DNA from: Brevibacterium oceani
GTDB lineage: Bacteria; Actinomycetota; Actinomycetes; Actinomycetales; Brevibacteriaceae
Direction of reading: 5' to 3'
Length of the DNA: 64,000 bases
Assembly (NCBI RefSeq): GCF_013623835.1
Contig: NZ_JABKDE010000005.1
Location: forward strand, 248,001 to 312,000
Shown: piece after piece, positions 14,695 to 23,466 of the stretch
Numbering within the stretch: the stretch's first letter is position 1
Layout of the letters: the number at the start of each line of letters is the position of its first letter
Notes under the pieces: model-generated
What the model saw: only the letters and a program-made list of their open reading frames with translations
Told to the model about the DNA's origin: nothing
The model's database searches: none
Translations under genes and position numbers: made by a program

Positions 14695-15056
14695 ACCCCA
14701 ATCGTGCCACGACGTGCGGATTCAGGCGAAGCGGGCTGCGCCGGGGCCATCCTGCGCTCGACCAGGTTCGGGCTGCTCCAGTTCAGTCACTGCACCAGGC
14801 CGATCTGCATGCCGCGACTCGCTCGAGCTGAATCGGCAACGCCGGATTGCCGCGTTGAGCTCGACCGGACACACCGGTGTGCTGCCTAGATCTGAGACTG
14901 CCCTGTCCGTAGGCCAAGGATTCTTGCCCTATATATCGAACATTCCCGAACTGTTCAATTTTTCTCAGAATTTTTTCGAACTACCTATTGTTCTATTTGC
15001 CGTATTCGAATAGAGTGATCATTACAACAACGACGTTGGTGAATGGATCGCTGAAG
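14695..15056 (+). promoter_or_regulatory. AT-rich upstream region of the HNH endonuclease gene
   Basis: 362 bp. The left 200 bp are of ordinary composition and show nothing. From about 14930 to 15025 the DNA becomes strikingly AT-rich. It contains repeated half-sites CGAAC or GTTC (14938, 14947, 14953, 14978, 14990) and a TTCGAA at 15006-15011. The half-sites resemble parts of an actinobacterial LexA box (CGAAC-N4-GTTCG), but none shows the right spacing. It probably carries the endonuclease promoter and may be a foreign remnant. Confidence 0.4.
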
Positions 15057-16676
15057 ATGACTCTCACACCCGAAGACAAAGCCGAGGACGCCGCGGATCG
15101 CGGTGCCCACAAGGCTCCTCAGAGCAGCGGACATCCCCTGCTCGCCGATGAGGAGTGGGCAGATCTGACGCGCTTTGCACCCGAGGTCACCGAGGCGATC
15201 ACCCATCTGATGGGTCTCAAGGACGGACTGCGCAGCTTCGATCGCCCGATGGGACCCGACCAGGCGATCATGCTCGTCGACGGCGTCGAAGCACTCAGCC
15301 GCATCAACGATGCTCTCTCCACTCTTGCGCTCGCGGTCTGCGAGCGGGTCGGCACTCCCAGCGAGTACGGAGCGAAGTCCACCAAAGCCCTCATCGAGAA
15401 TCGACTCAACCTCAGCGGAGCCGAAGCTCACCGGCGCACCGAGATGGCCAAGAATCTCGGCGGCCGGGTCGACTTCACCGGTCAGGCTCTCCCGCCCCTC
15501 TACCCTCTCGTCGCCGAGGCGCTCCACGCCGGAACGATCTCTGCCGGTCAAGCGACCGTCATCGAGAGCTGTCTGAAGAAGGTCCCGGCATGGGCCGACC
15601 AGACAGTCCGCACGGACATCGAGAGTCGATTGGTCACCAACGCCCCCAAGGTGCGTCTGAAAGACCTGCGGGCGATCTTCGATCGCCTCATGGGCCACAT
15701 CGACCCCGACGGCAGCGAACCGCTCGAACCCACCGACCGGTCGAAGTACTGCGTGAATCTCAAGGCTCGCACCAACGGCGACTGGGAACTTTCCGGCCTG
15801 CTCGATCCGGTCGCCGGCGGCACGCTCAACGGTCTGCTGACCTCACGCATCCAGGCCGCCAAAGAGGCGGCCGAGGCAACGACAACCGCAACGGACGAAA
15901 CACAGACTCCCGCCGAGTCCGACGACGAGCTGCTCGACATCGTCGACGCCGTCCTCTCCGGCGAGCGCCACGACGCGGTGAAGGTCCCCACCCCTGAGCT
16001 GCGCAATGCTTCAGGCGAGCGCCCCGCAGCCGACACACCCGGAATCGGTGTCCGCACCGACGGCAGCATCATCGACACGAGCGGCGAGCAGCCGTCCGTG
16101 CGCGAGTGGATCTACGAACGGTTCGCCGGTCTCGTTTCCACGATCGACAAACAGCGCACCACCGCGGGCGCTCCCTACGCCTTGGTCATCACAGCCATGG
16201 CCGAGGACCTCGCGAAGGGAAAGGGCACTGCGACGACCGGCGCCGAAAACCCCGTCCCCATCAGGGAGCTCGCGACCAACGGCCTCAACGGGTCGGTGTT
16301 CTTCCATCTCATGAGCGATACTGCGAAGACCGTGCAGGTCGCTACTGAGCAGCGGTTCGCCAACCGCAAGCAGATCGCCGTCATCACCGCCCGTGACAGG
16401 GGCTGTACGTTCCCCGGATGTGATGCGCCGCCCGGATGGTGCGACGCCAACCACGTCGTCCCCCACAGCGCGGGAGGCAGGACTGACATCAACAATCTCG
16501 CGCTCACGTGTTCCTATCACCACCACCTGCTCGACCACAGCGAGTGGGACACCCTCATGCTCCGCGACGGTCGACCGGCGTGGAAACCTCCAGCCACGGT
16601 AGACCCTGCCCGCACACCGATCCTGCACCCCCGCTTCATCGCGGACGACATCGTCGACACGCTCTTCGACGATTAG
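15057..16676 (+). CDS. HNH endonuclease with DUF222 (13E12 repeat family)
   Basis: A 539-residue protein. Residues about 40-330 form the helical DUF222 domain seen in actinobacterial 13E12 repeat proteins (STLALAVCERVG, GRVDFTGQALPPLYPLVAEAL, GDWELSGLLDPVAGG). The C-terminus is an HNH nuclease: RDRGCTFPGCDAP, then DANHVVPHSAGGRTDINN and LALTCSYHHHLLDH. This supplies zinc cysteines, the His-His pair, Asn and final His. Between them is a low-complexity acidic linker. Copies of this family are multiplied in actinobacterial genomes and their role is unsettled; a mobile or intron-homing origin has been proposed. ATG 15057 is the likely start; earlier in-frame codons add a poor sequence. The AT-rich upstream DNA is unlike its neighbours. 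Confidence 0.88.
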   Translation: MTLTPEDKAEDAADRGAHKAPQSSGHPLLADEEWADLTRFAPEVTEAITHLMGLKDGLRSFDRPMGPDQAIMLVDGVEALSRINDALSTLALAVCERVGTPSEYGAKSTKALIENRLNLSGAEAHRRTEMAKNLGGRVDFTGQALPPLYPLVAEALHAGTISAGQATVIESCLKKVPAWADQTVRTDIESRLVTNAPKVRLKDLRAIFDRLMGHIDPDGSEPLEPTDRSKYCVNLKARTNGDWELSGLLDPVAGGTLNGLLTSRIQAAKEAAEATTTATDETQTPAESDDELLDIVDAVLSGERHDAVKVPTPELRNASGERPAADTPGIGVRTDGSIIDTSGEQPSVREWIYERFAGLVSTIDKQRTTAGAPYALVITAMAEDLAKGKGTATTGAENPVPIRELATNGLNGSVFFHLMSDTAKTVQVATEQRFANRKQIAVITARDRGCTFPGCDAPPGWCDANHVVPHSAGGRTDINNLALTCSYHHHLLDHSEWDTLMLRDGRPAWKPPATVDPARTPILHPRFIADDIVDTLFDD

Positions 16677-16824: not shown

Positions 16825-18177
16825 TCACATCGCGCCGCCCTCGGGCGCAATCAGCCCGTTCCCGACCGTTTCTATTGAGTCGCGGTACCAGGTTCGCCGG
16901 ATGCGCATGTCCGTCTCCAAGAGCAGAAGGTCCGCCGGCATCCCCGGCATGAGAAGTTCGGGGCCAGACGCCAGGAGTTCGGTGCTGCCCTCTGCGAGCG
17001 ACATTCCCAACGCCTGCAACGGAACGAGGCTCGCGGCCCGCACGGCCTCGCTGGGGCTCAGCCCCACCTCGGCGACGGCGCGCCGGACGGCCCCGTCCAT
17101 CGTCAAGGTGGACCCGGCGATCGACCCGACCGATCCGTCCGCGGTCACGAGCCTGGCCACGGAATCCTCGACGACCACAGGCAGCGAACCGAGCATGTAC
17201 TCGCCGTCGCTCATCCCTGTCGCCGCCATCGCATCGGTGATGAGCGCGATGCGACCAGGCACCATCTCGTGCAGCACGCGCGCGACCGGGCCGACGACGT
17301 GGACGCCGTCGTTGATGAGCTCGAGAGTGACCTGCTCGTTCTCGACCGCGGCCAGGATCGGCCCCGGCGCCCGATGATGGATTCCGGGCATCGCGTTGAA
17401 TGCGTGCGTGAGGATGCTCGCGCCCGCCTCGAATCCCGCCGCCGTCAGCGCGTAGTCCGCTGCCGTGTGCCCGATGGCGACCCGCACCCCCGCCTCGGCG
17501 AACCGGGTGATCGCATCGAGCGCTCCAGGCAGTTCGGGGGCGATGGTGATCTGCGCGAGCGACCCATCTGCGGCCCCGAGGATCGCCTCGACTGCCTCGG
17601 GGGTGGGTGCGGTGAGCACCTCGGGAGCGTGCGCGCCCTTGAAATCCGGGGACAGGAACGGGCCTTCGGCGTGCAGGCCGAGGACACCCGTGTGGCTGCG
17701 CGCGAGTTCGGCGCCGCTGCTCAGCGATCGGCAGAGCCCGTCGATCGTGTCCGAGACATACGACAGCGCGAGCGCGCGGGTGCCGTGCTCGCGGTGGACG
17801 GCGAGGATCGTCTCGATCCCGTCGGCACCGTCCTCGGCGGCCGCGCCGCCGGCACCATGACAGTGGATGTCGACGAAGGCCGGGGACACGTATCCGCCCG
17901 CCGCGTCGATGACCTCGACCTCCGCCGAGGCGGCCGCGTCCTTCCAGCCGTCCCCGCGGCCGCGATCGACGATCGTTCCCTGACCGAACGCGATCCATGT
18001 GTCTGCGGGTGTGCTGGTGGGCGACTCGACCGCACCGTCGAGGATGTGCGCATCGTGGATGACCACCTCGGCGGGGGCGTCCGTACGACCTTTGATTCCC
18101 GCTTCGGCGGGGATGTGCACACGGCTCTCGGGTCCCGCCGCGATCGGTGCGTCCGTACGCTGTCCTGGCAGGGTCAT
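16825..18177 (-). CDS. nagA: N-acetylglucosamine/galactosamine-6-phosphate deacetylase
   Basis: A 450-residue amidohydrolase that removes acetate from N-acetylhexosamine 6-phosphate. Metal and catalytic landmarks are present: DIHCHGAGG, LHAEGPFLSPDFKGAH (Glu ligand), VAIGHTAAD, THAFNAM and ITDAMAATG (catalytic Asp). The C-terminal PADLLLLE and the barrel order are normal. About 35 N-terminal residues before EVVIHDAHIL look like a variable extension, so the start could lie slightly downstream. Last gene of the six-gene amino-sugar operon; its start overlaps the DeoR stop (ATGA). In this context it is equally an AgaA-type GalNAc-6-P deacetylase. Confidence 0.92.
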   Translation of the reverse strand: MTLPGQRTDAPIAAGPESRVHIPAEAGIKGRTDAPAEVVIHDAHILDGAVESPTSTPADTWIAFGQGTIVDRGRGDGWKDAAASAEVEVIDAAGGYVSPAFVDIHCHGAGGAAAEDGADGIETILAVHREHGTRALALSYVSDTIDGLCRSLSSGAELARSHTGVLGLHAEGPFLSPDFKGAHAPEVLTAPTPEAVEAILGAADGSLAQITIAPELPGALDAITRFAEAGVRVAIGHTAADYALTAAGFEAGASILTHAFNAMPGIHHRAPGPILAAVENEQVTLELINDGVHVVGPVARVLHEMVPGRIALITDAMAATGMSDGEYMLGSLPVVVEDSVARLVTADGSVGSIAGSTLTMDGAVRRAVAEVGLSPSEAVRAASLVPLQALGMSLAEGSTELLASGPELLMPGMPADLLLLETDMRIRRTWYRDSIETVGNGLIAPEGGAM

Positions 18178-18965
18178 CGGCTCTCACCCAGCGGTGCGAG
18201 TTCGACGTCATAACCGGCCGCGGTGAGTTCCTCTCGGTCATCATCGCCGAGGTGGTCATCGGTGATGATCGCTTCGAACACGTCGGTGCCCCCGACTGTG
18301 GCGAAGGCCTTCCGCCCGTACTTCGAGGAGTCCGCGACGACGACGGCATGGTCGGCGCGTTCGGCCATCAGCCGGTTGACGTACGCTTCGTCCTCATTGG
18401 CGGTCATCCCACCCGAGGCGGCGGACATGGCGTGGACTCCGACGAACGCGACGTCGAGCCAGATGCTGCGCAGCACACTGTCGACGAAGGAGCCGACGAG
18501 TTCGAAGCTCGAGGTGTTGATGACCCCACCGCAGACGATGACCTTGAGATTCGGATGGATGGCGAGCTTGTTGGCGATGTCGACGGCGTTCGTGACGATC
18601 GTGAGGTCGGCGAGCAGGTCATCACGCTGGCTGAGCGCATCGGCGACCATGAACGTCGTGGTGCCGCCCGACAGGCCGACGATCGATCCGGGGGTGATGC
18701 GGTCGACGGCGGCTCGTGCGATCGCAGCCTTCGCCTCGGTCGCGGCGGCTTCCTTGTAGCGCAGGGACAGTTCGTAGTCGACGGAACGGCGGGTGGCCCC
18801 GCCGTGAGTGCGTTCGACGAGGCGGCGCTGCTCGAGCAGGTCGAGATCGCGGCGGATCGTGGCCACGGAGACCTCGAGTTCGTGGCTGAGGGCCTCGACC
18901 CCGACCGTGCCCTCGTGGTCGAGTTTCGACAGGATCGCGTCGAGTCGATCTTCACGCGTGCTCAT
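18174..18965 (-). CDS. DeoR/GlpR-family repressor of the amino-sugar operon
   Basis: A 263-residue regulator. The N-terminal winged helix (EALSHELEVSVATIRRDLDLLEQRRLVERTHGGA, residues about 22-57) is the DeoR signature. The rest is the sugar-phosphate-sensing DeoR C-terminal domain: GLSGGTTTFMVADAL, VTNAVDIANKLA, VIVCGGVIN and VADSSKYGRKAFATVG. In AgaR/GlpR relatives this domain binds a sugar phosphate that releases DNA. It lies inside the operon between aldolase and nagA, so autoregulation is likely. The candidate operator is upstream of the SIS gene. Confidence 0.9.
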   Translation of the reverse strand: MSTREDRLDAILSKLDHEGTVGVEALSHELEVSVATIRRDLDLLEQRRLVERTHGGATRRSVDYELSLRYKEAAATEAKAAIARAAVDRITPGSIVGLSGGTTTFMVADALSQRDDLLADLTIVTNAVDIANKLAIHPNLKVIVCGGVINTSSFELVGSFVDSVLRSIWLDVAFVGVHAMSAASGGMTANEDEAYVNRLMAERADHAVVVADSSKYGRKAFATVGGTDVFEAIITDDHLGDDDREELTAAGYDVELAPLGESR

Positions 18966-19007
18966 AGGCCAACTTTCCGTCGTGGGCCGGAATTTGGCAA
19001 ACGCGGC

Positions 19008-19982
19008 TCATGCTCCGGTCCCACCGCTCGGCGAACGGCGCACCTGATCGTCGGCTCCTCCGGCAGCCCCGCCCTCCTGTCCGGCAGCGCCACCGCCGGA
19101 CAGGAGGGTGATGAGGCGGGCCACCTCGGCGGCGAAGGCCTCCCGGGCCGGGCCGAGGTACTTTCGGGAGTCCACGAGCGCCGGGTCGGTGTCGAGGATT
19201 CCGCGCAGCCGTTCGGTGAAGACCCTGTTGAGGTGGGTGGAGATGTTGATCTTGCGCATCCCGGCGGCGACGGCGCGGACGATCTCGTCATCGGGGACCC
19301 CGGAGGAACCGTGCAGAACCAGGGGCACGGGCAGTGTCTCTGCGAGGACCGCGATGAGGTCGAGGTCGAGGCGGCTGGTGCGCTCCACCATCGCATGGGA
19401 GCTGCCGACGGCGACGGCGAGCGCGTCGACGCCGGTTGCGGCCACGAAGTCCGCGGCCTCGGTCGGGTCGGTGCGCACCCCGGGCGAATGGGCGCCGTCC
19501 TTGCCGCCGATCTCGCCGAGTTCGGCCTCGACGGCGGCTCCGCTGGCATGGGCGCGGCGGACCGCCTCGGCGGTGGTGGCGACATTCGCATCGAAGTCGA
19601 GGTGGGCACCGTCGTACATCACGGAGTCGAAGCCGAGGTCGATTGCCTCGGCGACGAGTTCGGGGTCCGTGGCGTGGTCGAGGTGCACGGCGATCGGGAC
19701 GTTTGCGGACTCAGCGATGCTCAGTGTTGCACGGGCGATCGGGGCCAGTCGGCCGTGGTACTTCACGCAGTTCTCGGAGATCTGCATGATCGTCGGGCGA
19801 CCTGCCGCCTCGGCGCCGGCGGCGATCCCTTCGGCGGATTCGATGTGGATGACATTGAAGGCACCGACCGCGCAGGGACCGGCGAGCGCCGCTGGGGCTG
19901 CCGGTGACGCGGCGGCGGAAGCCGAGGTCGGCGGAGGGGTGACGCCATCGTGCAGAAGGTCGATCGTGGCGGCTTTCGTCAT
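19008..19982 (-). CDS. Class II ketose-bisphosphate aldolase (GatY/KbaY type)
   Basis: A 324-residue zinc aldolase that splits tagatose- or fructose-1,6-bisphosphate into dihydroxyacetone phosphate and glyceraldehyde 3-phosphate. Seen are VHLDHATD (H100, catalytic D102, Zn ligand H103), SVMYDGAHLDF, VEAELGEIGG, GVDALAVAVGSSHAM, LVLHGSSGVPDDEI and KINISTHLN. Residues 15-37 are an Ala/Pro/Ser-rich insertion absent from typical members, and a Gly/Ala-rich tail follows residue 295. ATG 19982 lies 4 nt after the PfkB kinase stop. Operon position directly after a PfkB kinase points to tagatose-1,6-bisphosphate as substrate, by inference. Confidence 0.9.
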   Translation of the reverse strand: MTKAATIDLLHDGVTPPPTSASAAASPAAPAALAGPCAVGAFNVIHIESAEGIAAGAEAAGRPTIMQISENCVKYHGRLAPIARATLSIAESANVPIAVHLDHATDPELVAEAIDLGFDSVMYDGAHLDFDANVATTAEAVRRAHASGAAVEAELGEIGGKDGAHSPGVRTDPTEAADFVAATGVDALAVAVGSSHAMVERTSRLDLDLIAVLAETLPVPLVLHGSSGVPDDEIVRAVAAGMRKINISTHLNRVFTERLRGILDTDPALVDSRKYLGPAREAFAAEVARLITLLSGGGAAGQEGGAAGGADDQVRRSPSGGTGA

Positions 19983-19986
19983 GGTC

Positions 19987-21315
19987 TCATTCTCCGGGAT
20001 TGTCGGCGGGTGAGGGGTGGTCGGCGGGTGCGGGGTGGGTGGTCGGTGCCTGGCGCTCCTCTGGGGCCGACGAAGGCGGCTCGGCGGGTGCCATGATCTG
20101 CACGCGATCGCGCAGAGCCCTCCAGCTCCCGTGGATAGCACCGGCTTGGGGCATGAGCACCGCGGAGGCCGAGATCGCGACAGCATCGGTGAGGATCGAC
20201 TCGACCTCGGCATCGGTGAGGCTCGCATCAGCGCTGTTGAGGCTCACGGCTGAATCGTCGAGGCTCGCGTCGGCGGCCCGAGACGCCGCAGAATCGTCGG
20301 TGCAAGTGGCTTCCCGCGACTGTGAGCCAGTGCCCTCGGCCAGGCGGCTGAGCAGTGCCGCCACCACGGCGTCGCCGGCACCCGTCGGATTCCCCTGCAC
20401 CGGCTGGTCGAGTTTCGCCGCCGACCGCGGCCCCGACCGGTCGATGAGCGTCAGCCCCGCTTCACCTCGAGAGGCAAGCACGGCTCCCGCCCCCGCCGCG
20501 ATGAGGGCACTGGCGCTCCTGACCTGGAAGGCCGGGGTCATGCTCTGAGAACTGTCGTCGACGAAACCGTCCGCGGCCTGTGCATCCACGCGCGTCTGGT
20601 CGCTGCCCGTGGGCGTTGCGTCGGCTGCGGCGAGTTCGGCGAGTTCGGCGAGTTCCTCAGTGTTGGGTTTGAGCCAGTCGGCTCCGGCCTTCGCCGCTGT
20701 GATCAGTGCCGGCCCCGAGGTGTCGACGACGACGGAGACCCCGGAGGCATGCGCAGCGGCGACGATACGATCGACGAACCCCTCCGGCAGATCCACGGGA
20801 GTCGAACCCGAGATCGCCAGCGCCCTCACCTGCGGTTCGACGAGTCGTGAGCGCAGCTTCTCTTCGATCTGCTCCCACACCTCGACCGGGTGTTCGGAGG
20901 CGCGTTCGTTGAACAGGGTGGCGCGACCGGAGGACTCGACGAGTGCGTAGCTGCGGCGCAGTCGCGCCGGAGTCGGCGTCAGATCCCACACCAAGTCGTC
21001 GGTCGGGCCGACGGCCTCCGGCCAGTCCGTGGTATTCACCGGACCCTGCACATAGACGGACCAATCGAGCGCGGAGAGGACTTGCGCGACGTTGATCCCT
21101 TTCCCGCCGAGGCGGCCGCCGGCCTGCGCGACCCGATGCGAGGTTCCGAGATCGATTGCGTCCACATCGATGGTGAGGTCGCGGGCAGGGCTGAGCGTGA
21201 GGGTGACGACTTGCGGTGCACGGCTCGTCTCTCTGCCGGTCATCGAGCCGCACTCACGCTCGTACCGGTTGCCGTCGCGGCCGGCACCGGACGCATCCGC
21301 CGCCCCGCCGGTCAT
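19987..21315 (-). CDS. PfkB-family sugar-phosphate kinase (tagatose-6-P/1-phosphofructokinase type)
   Basis: A 442-residue ribokinase-fold kinase. It has the tagatose-6-P/fructose-1-P kinase opening VVTLTLSPARDLTIDVDAI, GGRLGGKGINVAQVL, DWLKPNTEELAELAE, and the anion-hole/catalytic motif NPTGAGDAVVAALL. An unusual insertion of about 45 Ser/Ala/Asp-rich residues (SREATCTDDSAASRAADASL and on) follows the catalytic motif, and the C-terminus is Pro/Ala-rich. Both seem to be disordered expansions. I take ATG 21315, which overlaps the ROK stop (ATGA) and has AGGGG upstream. ATG 21243 is the alternative and would remove 24 residues. Role: phosphorylates the ketose 6-phosphate ahead of the aldolase. 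Confidence 0.87.
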   Translation of the reverse strand: MTGGAADASGAGRDGNRYERECGSMTGRETSRAPQVVTLTLSPARDLTIDVDAIDLGTSHRVAQAGGRLGGKGINVAQVLSALDWSVYVQGPVNTTDWPEAVGPTDDLVWDLTPTPARLRRSYALVESSGRATLFNERASEHPVEVWEQIEEKLRSRLVEPQVRALAISGSTPVDLPEGFVDRIVAAAHASGVSVVVDTSGPALITAAKAGADWLKPNTEELAELAELAAADATPTGSDQTRVDAQAADGFVDDSSQSMTPAFQVRSASALIAAGAGAVLASRGEAGLTLIDRSGPRSAAKLDQPVQGNPTGAGDAVVAALLSRLAEGTGSQSREATCTDDSAASRAADASLDDSAVSLNSADASLTDAEVESILTDAVAISASAVLMPQAGAIHGSWRALRDRVQIMAPAEPPSSAPEERQAPTTHPAPADHPSPADNPGE

Positions 21316-22397
21316 CGTTGTCCCCTGGTGAGTTGACCGGCCCTGGTGAGCTGACCGGTCCTGGTGAGCAGGCCGGCGCCGATGAGTCCGGCGACCGAAC
21401 CGAGCCCGGCCGTGTGGATCTCCGGTTCGCGGTGGAATCTCAGCCGAGTGCGCATCGCGGCGGTCACTGCGGGAATGAGTTCAGAGGCACCGCTCAGACC
21501 TCCCCCGAGGACGATCGCCGAGGGAGCGGTGATCGTCACGAGCTGGGCACACATGGCGCCGAGGGCATCGGCCGCCTCGGCGAACACCTCAGCAGCGACC
21601 GCGTCGCCCGAGCGCATCGCCTCGAGCACCTCCCGCGCCCCGCCGGCGTCCCGACCGCTGCGCTCCGCGTACCGACGGGCGATCGCGGCCGCCGAAGCGA
21701 TGAGCTCGACGGGCCCCTTGAACCGCCCTTCGGCGATGTCGACAGCGACCTCGAGGAAGCCCAGCTCACCGGCATATCCCCCGGACGAGACCATCCGGCC
21801 CTCGACCTGCATGGCACCGGCGATGCCCGTGCCGATGGTGACGAGTGCGGCATCGGCGGGCATCGATGCCGCGAACTCGAACTCCGCCCGACCGGCCGCG
21901 CGCACATCATGGCCGAAGACGACCTCACAGCCGAGCGACCGAGCGAGCAGATCCGCCATGGGTACATCCCGCCAGCCGAGGTTCGCCGAGTACACCGCGG
22001 TCCCCGTCGCCTCTTCGACGATGCCCGGCACGACCACGGCCGCCGTCGCGACCGGCAGTTCGGGGTGCGCTTCCGCGAGGTCATCGCGCAGTGCCACGAC
22101 CGCGTCGACGATCGCCTCTTCCGGAGCGTGCACATCGGCAGTCCCCTCCGGGGCGCGCCCACCGGCAGTCCCCTCCGAGTCAGGCACGGGAGCGGACCCA
22201 GCGATGGCGGGCTCAGGTGCGACCCCCGCCGAGGCGGCTGCAGGCGTGGATGCGGTGCGGGCATCGACGAGGGCGCCGTCCGAGTCGAACAGCCCCGCCT
22301 TGAGCCCCGTACCGCCGACGTCAACGGCCAGGGCAACGGGGCCGAGACCGAGGCTGAGAGCTCCGGCCACGTCCAGGATCTCGGTGCGGGTGGTCAT
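21312..22397 (-). CDS. ROK-family sugar kinase
   Basis: A 361-residue ROK/ASKHA-fold kinase. Phosphate-1 loop is ALAVDVGGTGLKAGLFDSDG. The mid-region has TIGTGIAGAMQVEG and SSGGYAGELGF, and VLGGGLSGASELI sits near the C-terminus. The ROK zinc-binding motif (HxxCxCGxxGCxE) that normally follows AGELGH is missing; the sequence runs LEVAVDIAEGRFKG instead. A Pro/Ala insertion (about 50-85) carries the near-repeat EGTAGGRAPEGTADVHAPE. The C-terminus is a tandem repeat TRTGQLTRAGQLTRGQR encoded by 18-bp DNA repeats. It probably phosphorylates an incoming free amino sugar. Coupled by ATGA on both sides. Confidence 0.85.
   Translation of the reverse strand: MTTRTEILDVAGALSLGLGPVALAVDVGGTGLKAGLFDSDGALVDARTASTPAAASAGVAPEPAIAGSAPVPDSEGTAGGRAPEGTADVHAPEEAIVDAVVALRDDLAEAHPELPVATAAVVVPGIVEEATGTAVYSANLGWRDVPMADLLARSLGCEVVFGHDVRAAGRAEFEFAASMPADAALVTIGTGIAGAMQVEGRMVSSGGYAGELGFLEVAVDIAEGRFKGPVELIASAAAIARRYAERSGRDAGGAREVLEAMRSGDAVAAEVFAEAADALGAMCAQLVTITAPSAIVLGGGLSGASELIPAVTAAMRTRLRFHREPEIHTAGLGSVAGLIGAGLLTRTGQLTRAGQLTRGQR
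21323..21374. repeat. 18-bp tandem repeats at the ROK kinase 3' end
   Basis: CCCTGGTGAG(T/C)TGACCGG is repeated at 21323-21340 and 21341-21358 with a partial third copy. In frame it gives the C-terminal TGQLTR hexapeptide repeat of the ROK kinase. The first copy includes the AGGGG ribosome site of the PfkB gene on the minus strand. Confidence 0.8.
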
Positions 22398-23323
22398 CCC
22401 TCGAGGACGACCGAGCGGGTCAGTGACCTGGGATTGTCCGGGTCGACGCCGAGGCGGCGAGCGCGCATGAGCGCCACCGCGTGGAGACGGACGAGATCGG
22501 CCAGGGGATCCCGGTCGGCCTGTTCGAAGCGAGCTCCGGTGGCCTCGACCTGAGCGGCGAGCCCCTCCGGCGCTCGGCCGAACTGCCAGCTCACCCGCCC
22601 CGGAGCGGCGATCGCAATCGGTCCGTGCCGATACTCCATGGACGAATAGGACTCCGTCCAGGCCCGAGCGGATTCGCGCAGCTTGAGCGCCGCCTCGTTC
22701 GCCAACCCCCAGGTCCACCCCATACCGAGGAAGCTGTACTGCTCGGCGGTGAGGAGCCCGTCGTCGATGAGCGTCTCATCGGCCGTCGTGAAGTCGGCGT
22801 CGATTCCGTCGAGCACGGTCCGGGCATCGGCGATGGCCGCCTCGAGCTCGGCGTCCTGGCCGAGCCACGACCGCATCGCCACGATCGCCGAGGTGCCGAA
22901 GCGGGTCTGGACGACCGAGCGCTCATCGGCGAAGTCGAGCTCGACGACATGGCTCGAGGCCGCGCCGATCGGAGAGTCCGCCACCCCGAGCACCGAGGTC
23001 ACCGGCGTCGAACCGGCGAGCTGTTCGAGGGCGGCCGCCACCTCGGTGGTGGTGCCGGACCGGGAGATCGCGACGATGCGGTCATAGCGGCGCCCGGTGG
23101 GGAATTCGCTGGCCGTGAAGGCGTCCGTCTCCCCCTTGCCGAGGCTCTCACGCAGGGACGCGAAGACCTGCGCCCCGAACCACGAGGTGCCGCAGCCGAT
23201 GACCGCGATCCGTTCCCCGTCCTGCGGCAGCGCCGAGGTTGCCGCCGGCGTCTCGAGGACGCGCTGCCAGATGTCGGGCTGACTGCGCAGCTCCGATTCC
23301 ATGAACCGGCCGAGCTCGGACAT
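22394..23323 (-). CDS. SIS-domain aminosugar-6-phosphate deaminase/isomerase (AgaS-like)
   Basis: A 309-residue double-SIS protein related to AgaS and the isomerase half of GlmS. Motifs are VIGCGTSWFGAQVFAS (sugar-phosphate loop), AISRSGTTTEV, and the C-terminal ANEAALKLRESARAWTESYSSMEYRHGP that supplies the catalytic Glu/His region. There is no glutaminase domain, so it should release ammonia from hexosamine 6-phosphate rather than form it. ATG 23323 has CAGGAG 8 nt upstream, which decides it over TTG 23326. First gene of the operon; its stop overlaps the ROK start (ATGA). Confidence 0.87.
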   Translation of the reverse strand: MSELGRFMESELRSQPDIWQRVLETPAATSALPQDGERIAVIGCGTSWFGAQVFASLRESLGKGETDAFTASEFPTGRRYDRIVAISRSGTTTEVAAALEQLAGSTPVTSVLGVADSPIGAASSHVVELDFADERSVVQTRFGTSAIVAMRSWLGQDAELEAAIADARTVLDGIDADFTTADETLIDDGLLTAEQYSFLGMGWTWGLANEAALKLRESARAWTESYSSMEYRHGPIAIAAPGRVSWQFGRAPEGLAAQVEATGARFEQADRDPLADLVRLHAVALMRARRLGVDPDNPRSLTRSVVLEG

Positions 23324-23466
23324 CAATCACACTCCTGATCGAAACTTTCACTAATCAATCACAATAATGACACATTTCCCGCCTCAGCGATAGATAATCT
23401 GTGCGATCTGTCGGCAAGTCGATCATTCCCATGAACGTTCAGCACTGATTCCGTTCATGCTGATGC
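23324..23466 (-). promoter_or_regulatory. Promoter/operator region of the amino-sugar operon
   Basis: 143 bp, AT-rich from 23335 to 23400. CGAAACTTTC (23340-23349) contains GAAA/TTTC half-sites like those bound by DeoR-family repressors. TGATTGATTAGTG, read on the minus strand, lies next to it. A TTATCT-like -10 may lie near 23393. These are suggestions only; the right end runs into the S9 peptidase stop with no clear terminator. Confidence 0.35.

Follow-up and report, generated by a model that had tools for sequence, protein, structure and literature searches.

A predicted Aga-type amino-sugar operon with a GlmD-like deaminase in Brevibacterium oceani

A stretch of 64,000 nucleotides from Brevibacterium oceani, hereafter the window (bases 248001-312000 of contig C16, in a 4.48 Mb genome of 20 contigs labelled G000), carries a minus-strand operon at 16825-23323 with the transcription order sis-rok-pfkB-aldolase-deoR-nagA. 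Sequence comparisons incline us to read it as an actinobacterial Aga-type pathway, in which an amino sugar resembling N-acetylgalactosamine (GalNAc) would be degraded through tagatose phosphates. In the proposed scheme, an ATP-binding cassette (ABC) importer encoded on another contig would take up GalNAc, or a small glycan containing it, and the ROK kinase would convert GalNAc to GalNAc-6-phosphate. NagA would deacetylate GalNAc-6-phosphate and would also serve the N-acetylglucosamine-6-phosphate (GlcNAc-6-P) of a separate NanE/NagB route. A GlmD-like SIS protein would then deaminate and isomerise galactosamine-6-phosphate (GalN-6-P) to tagatose-6-phosphate, which PfkB and the class II aldolase would turn into triose phosphates. 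DeoR would repress the operon, perhaps through a conserved element before sis. That a kinase and a permease can take over from the phosphotransferase system (PTS) is already known; what is most likely new is an actinobacterial version of that scheme in which some of the enzymes differ.

All six genes are genuine and intact, and purifying selection maintains them. None contains an internal stop, and each product passes a Pfam cut-off (SIS, ROK, PfkB, F_bP_aldolase, HTH_DeoR with DeoRC, and Amidohydro_1). Spacings in transcription order are -4, -4, 4, 42 and -4 bp, giving 4-bp overlaps at sis/rok, rok/pfkB and deoR/nagA, and gaps at pfkB/aldolase and aldolase/deoR. Against the nearest genome, G003, dN/dS (the ratio of computed dN and dS) is 0.14 for sis, 0.29 for rok, 0.40 for pfkB, 0.22 for aldolase, 0.10 for deoR and 0.28 for nagA. 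The original prediction, which had described six overlapping or closely spaced genes without a transporter, is borne out on both points: no transporter gene lies among the six, and the upstream neighbour encodes an S9 peptidase (Pfam). The top NCBIfam names are GlmS/GlmD, the ROK glucokinase family, 1-PFK hexose kinase, class II fructose-bisphosphate aldolase (FBA), AgaR and NagA. As no protein of the six reached a curated NCBIfam cut-off for any model listed, any name finer than the family is one that we infer.

The case for tagatose phosphates rests on redundancy. A NagB-type route requires no further kinase or aldolase, as the original prediction had pointed out, and the genome holds a separate phosphofructokinase (PFK), a second class II aldolase and a NagB elsewhere; tagatose is the best fit because these would make the operon's PfkB and aldolase superfluous for fructose-6-phosphate, and glucosamine-6-phosphate is already provided for by NagB. 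Nor does a NagB-type deaminase have a place in the operon, whose deaminase gene is of the SIS type, the only PF01182 match in the genome lying on contig C4. Of the Aga-type logic first proposed, the kinase at the start, PfkB with a class II aldolase at the end and the redundancy argument all hold, GalNAc being the predicted substrate. DeoR scores best against AgaR in NCBIfam, at 179.4 bits, below the equivalog cut-off of 260. ROK has the ROK glucokinase 3vgk as its best solved relative, and the motif CxCGxxGC, which we take to be the usual ROK cysteine zinc motif, is absent from all eight copies aligned (8 of 11 cassette copies).

NagA appears to be shared with a second pathway. It is the genome's single strong TIGR00221 match, the next reaching just 21 bits, and the genome's NagB (over the NCBIfam nagB cut-off) sits on C4 in a sialic-acid type cluster (L053:3540-9392) with NanE, a NanA/DapA-like lyase, a ROK kinase, an SSS symporter and a GntR-like gene named by eye. 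Because the genome has one strong NagA and this cluster has none of its own, the operon NagA is probably common to both routes; the NagA/NagB pathway for GlcNAc and sialic acid differs in requiring no kinase and aldolase pair, and in a deaminase of PF01182 where the window has PF01380. Such sharing is shown to work in Escherichia coli, where nagA can replace agaA and nagB cannot replace agaS (PMC3668189), which makes one shared NagA with a dedicated SIS protein plausible. The NagA of Streptomyces coelicolor also acts on GalNAc-6-phosphate (PMC12680351).

Comparison within the genus separates nagA from its five neighbours. A family-level search covered 60 genomes, 57 of them of the genus, and found a strong SIS orthologue in 11 of the 57, the window's included; 39 of the 57 have a strong NagA (E < 1e-50). 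Of the 28 genus genomes with nagA and no cassette, 16 were fetched for locus comparison. In 15 of these nagA has the same flanking genes and stands alone there, the other five genes giving no match; the sixteenth, G010, has a single strong NagA, 42% identical, which adjoins a NagB. Among the fetched loci, G051 and G007 have no S9 peptidase match beside nagA. By this comparison nagA is a core gene of the genus and the other five genes an accessory cassette, so that the operon's nagA, correctly placed by the original prediction as to deacetylase family and position, is not specific to the operon. The other ten cassette genomes have the identical six-gene order at 45-95% identity (tblastn segments), nagA being cut by the contig end in G050 with its remainder on another contig. 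Mapped on a tree built from flanking proteins, the cassette requires 7 changes, of which well-supported branches force at least 6; equally few suffice in 71 of 500 shuffles, so the cassette is hardly clustered in its distribution. The main groups of the cassette tree agree with the flank tree; both are quick searches with SH-like approximate likelihood-ratio (SH-aLRT) support only, and the cassette tree carries a warning in that its long branches meet at the outgroup. The NagA tree pairs G046 with G052 and G005 with G016, where the flank tree pairs G046 with G005, and on account of this conflict the genus has likely seen some exchange. The simplest reading is vertical descent in which the five genes were probably lost repeatedly and nagA was spared.

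To look outside the genus, contigs from 84,980 species were scanned. This yielded 477 stretches, and a relative is encoded in 406 of them; of the best 80, which were retained, 79 come from records bearing actinobacterial names. Seventy-two lie outside Brevibacterium, and in 60 of these sis is flanked by over 5 kb on each side; within 6 kb of sis these 60 have deoR in 54 cases, aldolase in 50, pfkB in 45, nagA in 25 and rok in 24 (tblastn matches above 50 bits, among which paralogues may be counted). The layout is sis-rok-pfkB-aldolase-deoR in Microbacterium, the same with nagA added in three Agromyces loci, and a divergent deoR with sis-nagA-pfkB-aldolase in Nonomuraea; nagA joins sis-pfkB-aldolase in Actinomadura as well. 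That nagA has joined repeatedly, and in layouts that differ, favours an N-acetylated substrate.

The importer search elsewhere in the genome, proposed with the original prediction, turned up an unlinked ABC candidate on contig C14 related to ABC genes that adjoin sis in other genera. Within the genus a different transporter occupies that position: a divergent sugar-porter gene of the major facilitator superfamily (MFS; PF00083, TIGR00879 over cut-off) stands beside sis in 7 of the 57 genomes, all cassette-bearing, and in no other genus genome at E <= 1e-100, with at most 27 candidates scored per genome. The cassette occurs without it in the window's genome, G003, G045 and G052; the window's genome offers a best match of only 31% identity, and a 45% identical gene lies about 275 kb from the cassette of G059, which belongs to another genus. 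ABC importer genes lie divergently beside sis in five of the best 80 loci (L142, L167 and L169 of Agromyces; L130 and L131 of Microbacterium), and because of this linkage the C14 candidate is provisionally assigned to the operon. Its binding protein is 66-80% identical to those of the five loci (73% to an Agromyces one divergent from sis) and its permeases 74-84%, and distant relatives of the binding protein (35-39%) lie upstream of sis in six more of the 80. The best solved relatives of the binding protein are various sugar binders, among which a galacto-N-biose binder ranks very low, so the sugar cannot be read from similarity.

G000 and G003 carry the importer at the syntenic C14 site; as sister genomes they represent one importer event. 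At this site there is no importer match in the MFS-bearing G021, G031 and G046 (a 31% ATPase match in G046 aside), or in the cassette-less G028, G018, G043, G038 and G016. The MFS-bearing G034 has a different ABC importer there (L278, G034:C1 about 3,786,000-3,791,000), with an ATPase at 66%, permeases at 29-30% and no binding-protein match, and the place is possibly an insertion hot spot. The Gfo/Idh flank gene was not found at the site in G034 and G016, the survey left out G045 and G052, and probes of G048 and G027 stopped short of it. Judged at the syntenic site only, the distribution fits a swap of the MFS gene for the ABC importer in the window's lineage.

Upstream of sis lies an operator- or promoter-like element, TGTGTCATTATTGTGATTGAT, which is conserved in the upstream regions of all 11 cassette genomes, G031 having the most diverged form. 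When as many as 2 mismatches are allowed, it has a single match in its own genome, that before sis (control 0), and is perhaps bound by DeoR. A weight matrix from the 11 sites scores the importer promoter at 8.7 in G000 and 14.4 in G003, with 0.002 and 0.001 expected against the contig background; the G000 score is equalled or exceeded in 3 of 113 GC-matched, partly overlapping windows, and the case for the importer sharing the element is weak.

Several observations weigh against the tagatose reading, most of them concerning enzyme identity. The SIS protein lies outside the AgaS family, with 29.6 bits for agaS_fam where the cut-off is 529.2, and scores 89 with GlmS, 63 with GlmD and 45.5 with NagB-II. 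Among its relatives of solved structure, glucosamine-6-phosphate (GlcN-6-P) deaminases reach 100-123 bits and the AgaS-annotated 3odp, 3i0z and 3c3j 39-50. An AlphaFold2 model (predicted local distance difference test, pLDDT, 93.4) has GlcN-6-P deaminases and the GlmS isomerase domain as its top Foldseek matches, at 19-25% identity in structural alignments, and the Glu and His of the GlmS motif, presumably catalytic, align. On these comparisons the protein is not an AgaS orthologue, and its nearest characterised relatives by profile, modelled fold and alignment are GlcN-6-P deaminases of the GlmD/TM0813 type; it resembles these and NagB-II in fold and aligned motif residues, and differs in its low identity and in sitting with PfkB and an aldolase. 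The aldolase scores higher with the FBA model (238 bits) than with GatY (212) or tagatose-bisphosphate aldolase (186), none over its cut-off, and its best solved chain is an FBA. PfkB (TIGR03168, 160 bits) has a tagatose-6-phosphate kinase as its best solved chain at 54 bits, with a 1-phosphofructokinase close behind at 51. By score, tagatose versus fructose specificity is left undecided for both enzymes, whose superfamilies fit the tagatose route. None of the five outside loci has the importer's ATPase gene next to sis, and the operator-like sites in the importer promoter stand at different positions in G000 and G003.

These points feed the main rival, a self-contained glucosamine or GlcNAc module in which the SIS protein would be a NagB-like GlcN-6-P deaminase yielding fructose-6-phosphate, and PfkB and the aldolase would carry this on to triose phosphates. 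To the nearest SIS relatives and the FBA score it can add a NagA within the operon and the distribution of NagB, likewise unfavourable to a tagatose route: NagB is missing from 5 of the 11 cassette genomes (G006, G034, G042, G045 and G050) and from 2 of the 28 with nagA and no cassette (G007 and G047), in a table tallied by hand (Fisher p 0.012, uncorrected for relatedness), as if the cassette may stand in for NagB. Three of the five NagB-less cassette genomes fall in one clade and therefore represent few independent events, and NagB is kept in 6 of the 11, the window's genome among them, which with the redundant kinase and aldolase makes this module less likely than the tagatose route, though still a serious contender.

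A second alternative takes the five-gene cassette as serving free galactosamine, with nagA a mere neighbour busy with its own GlcNAc-6-P. The solitary nagA of cassette-less congeners speaks for it, as do G059, with five cassette genes and no nagA within the 19 kb fetched, and 14 of the 60 outside loci, where the other four partners occur without any nagA match in the surrounding 6 kb, a finding that also counts against the GalNAc scheme as drawn. It is improbable given the 4-bp overlap of nagA and deoR in the window, the three Agromyces loci where nagA closes the same six-gene order, and the joining of nagA to sis-pfkB-aldolase in Nonomuraea and Actinomadura. Least probable of all, and only barely credible, is a non-amino sugar, with the SIS protein acting as a simple aldose/ketose isomerase or as a deglycase for some other hexose-6-phosphate. 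Five outside loci with a GH4-like gene, ABC genes and no nagA match lean that way, along with one that has an epimerase of N-acylglucosamine 2-epimerase (AGE) type after the aldolase; opposed to it are the deaminase and GlmS-type folds matched by the SIS protein, a fructoselysine deglycase model scoring only 25 bits, and the outside loci with nagA close to sis.

The Aga-type pathway preferred here can be set beside known systems, as described in the accessible parts of the sources. Shewanella uses GalNAc by a kinase and permease replacing the PTS (PMC2996990; reviewed in PMC12118421), and its AgaK, AgaP, AgaA-II and AgaS parallel the window in that scheme, in the deacetylase and in a SIS deaminase; in the window, by difference, the SIS protein falls outside the AgaS family by score, the operon has a PfkB kinase and a single class II aldolase, and the candidate importer is of ABC type (on C14) or, in congeners, of MFS type. 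The E. coli aga/gam regulon, whose AgaR is nearest to the window's DeoR by score, differs in its PTS import and AgaS (PMC12118421). Two further candidates were rejected: Streptomyces NagS, a SIS protein with GlcNAc-6-P dehydratase activity, related to MurQ and described as confined to Streptomycetaceae (PMC12680351), since the window's protein matches GlcN-6-P deaminases and GlmS instead; and an actinobacterial glucosamine-kinase cluster (PMC6520443), with a maltokinase-like kinase and, in its available text, no occurrence of the word aldolase. No account of the actinobacterial operon was found in the literature, judged by titles and abstract openings, with subscription journals mostly outside coverage.

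If the reading is true, many Actinomycetota would have an unrecognised GalNAc or galactosamine route. Its key enzyme would score as generic SIS or GlmS-like, so that AgaS-based pathway predictions would miss the route; a gut genome survey, for instance, takes AgaS as the signature, at least in the accessible text (PMC5583593), and would probably overlook the window's SIS protein. The genus offers a natural experiment, combining a single core nagA with an accessory cassette that was lost (or exchanged) repeatedly and a seemingly replaced transporter. We hold only tentatively, as something rather short of probable, the wider proposal that the GlmD-like SIS protein represents a further non-AgaS family of GalN-6-P deaminases marking an Actinomycetota-wide GalNAc pathway, with a NagA shared with the GlcNAc/sialic-acid route and, in the lineage of the window, an MFS transporter swapped for a Microbacteriaceae-like ABC importer.

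Table 1. Features of the operon and its candidate importer (window positions unless a contig is named)
Feature	Position	Strand	Description
sis	22394..23323	-	SIS-fold phosphosugar deaminase/isomerase, first operon gene; predicted GalN-6-P (or GlcN-6-P) deaminase; PF01380
rok	21312..22397	-	ROK-family sugar kinase; predicted to convert free amino sugar to 6-phosphate; PF00480, 138.7 bits
pfkB	19987..21315	-	PfkB-family ketose-phosphate kinase; predicted to convert tagatose-6-phosphate to tagatose-1,6-bisphosphate; PF00294
aldolase	19008..19982	-	class II ketose-bisphosphate aldolase; PF01116, 278 bits
deoR	18174..18965	-	DeoR-family regulator, predicted repressor; PF08220 and PF00455
nagA	16825..18177	-	N-acetylhexosamine-6-phosphate deacetylase, last operon gene; TIGR00221, 208.9 bits (cut-off 225.65)
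element TGTGTCATTATTGTGATTGAT	23354..23374	-	operator/promoter-like element upstream of sis
ABC importer candidate	C14:394053-398574		window's genome; orthologues of sis-adjacent ABC genes, plus an ATPase gene

Some minor observations complete the picture. A convergent gene (14988-16676) adjoins nagA, its product resembling, we presume, a DUF222/HNH-endonuclease protein. The window's ROK has a 34-residue Ala/Pro-rich stretch missing from the 7 other aligned copies (sister G003 being outside the alignment), and its PfkB, at 442 residues with Ala/Ser-rich stretches, is longer than most relatives. Nine genus genomes have a NagB-family match and no strong NagA (G008, G013, G015, G020, G030, G036, G039, G054 and G055), and G007 and G047 have nagA and neither NagB nor the cassette. 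On its short contig C14 (L047, 11,998 bases) G046 has another copy of the cassette, diverged and in inverted orientation, which faces the first, has stops in its sis frame and may be a degenerate copy, a contaminant or an assembly artefact. Beyond the genus, the GH4-bearing loci (L141, L152, L165, L176 and L188, the glycoside hydrolase assignment being confirmed for the L141 member only) combine ABC importer genes with sis relatives and are possibly a galactoside or galactosaminide variant, and the AGE-type gene that directly follows the aldolase lies in Intrasporangium (L163:12675-13919).

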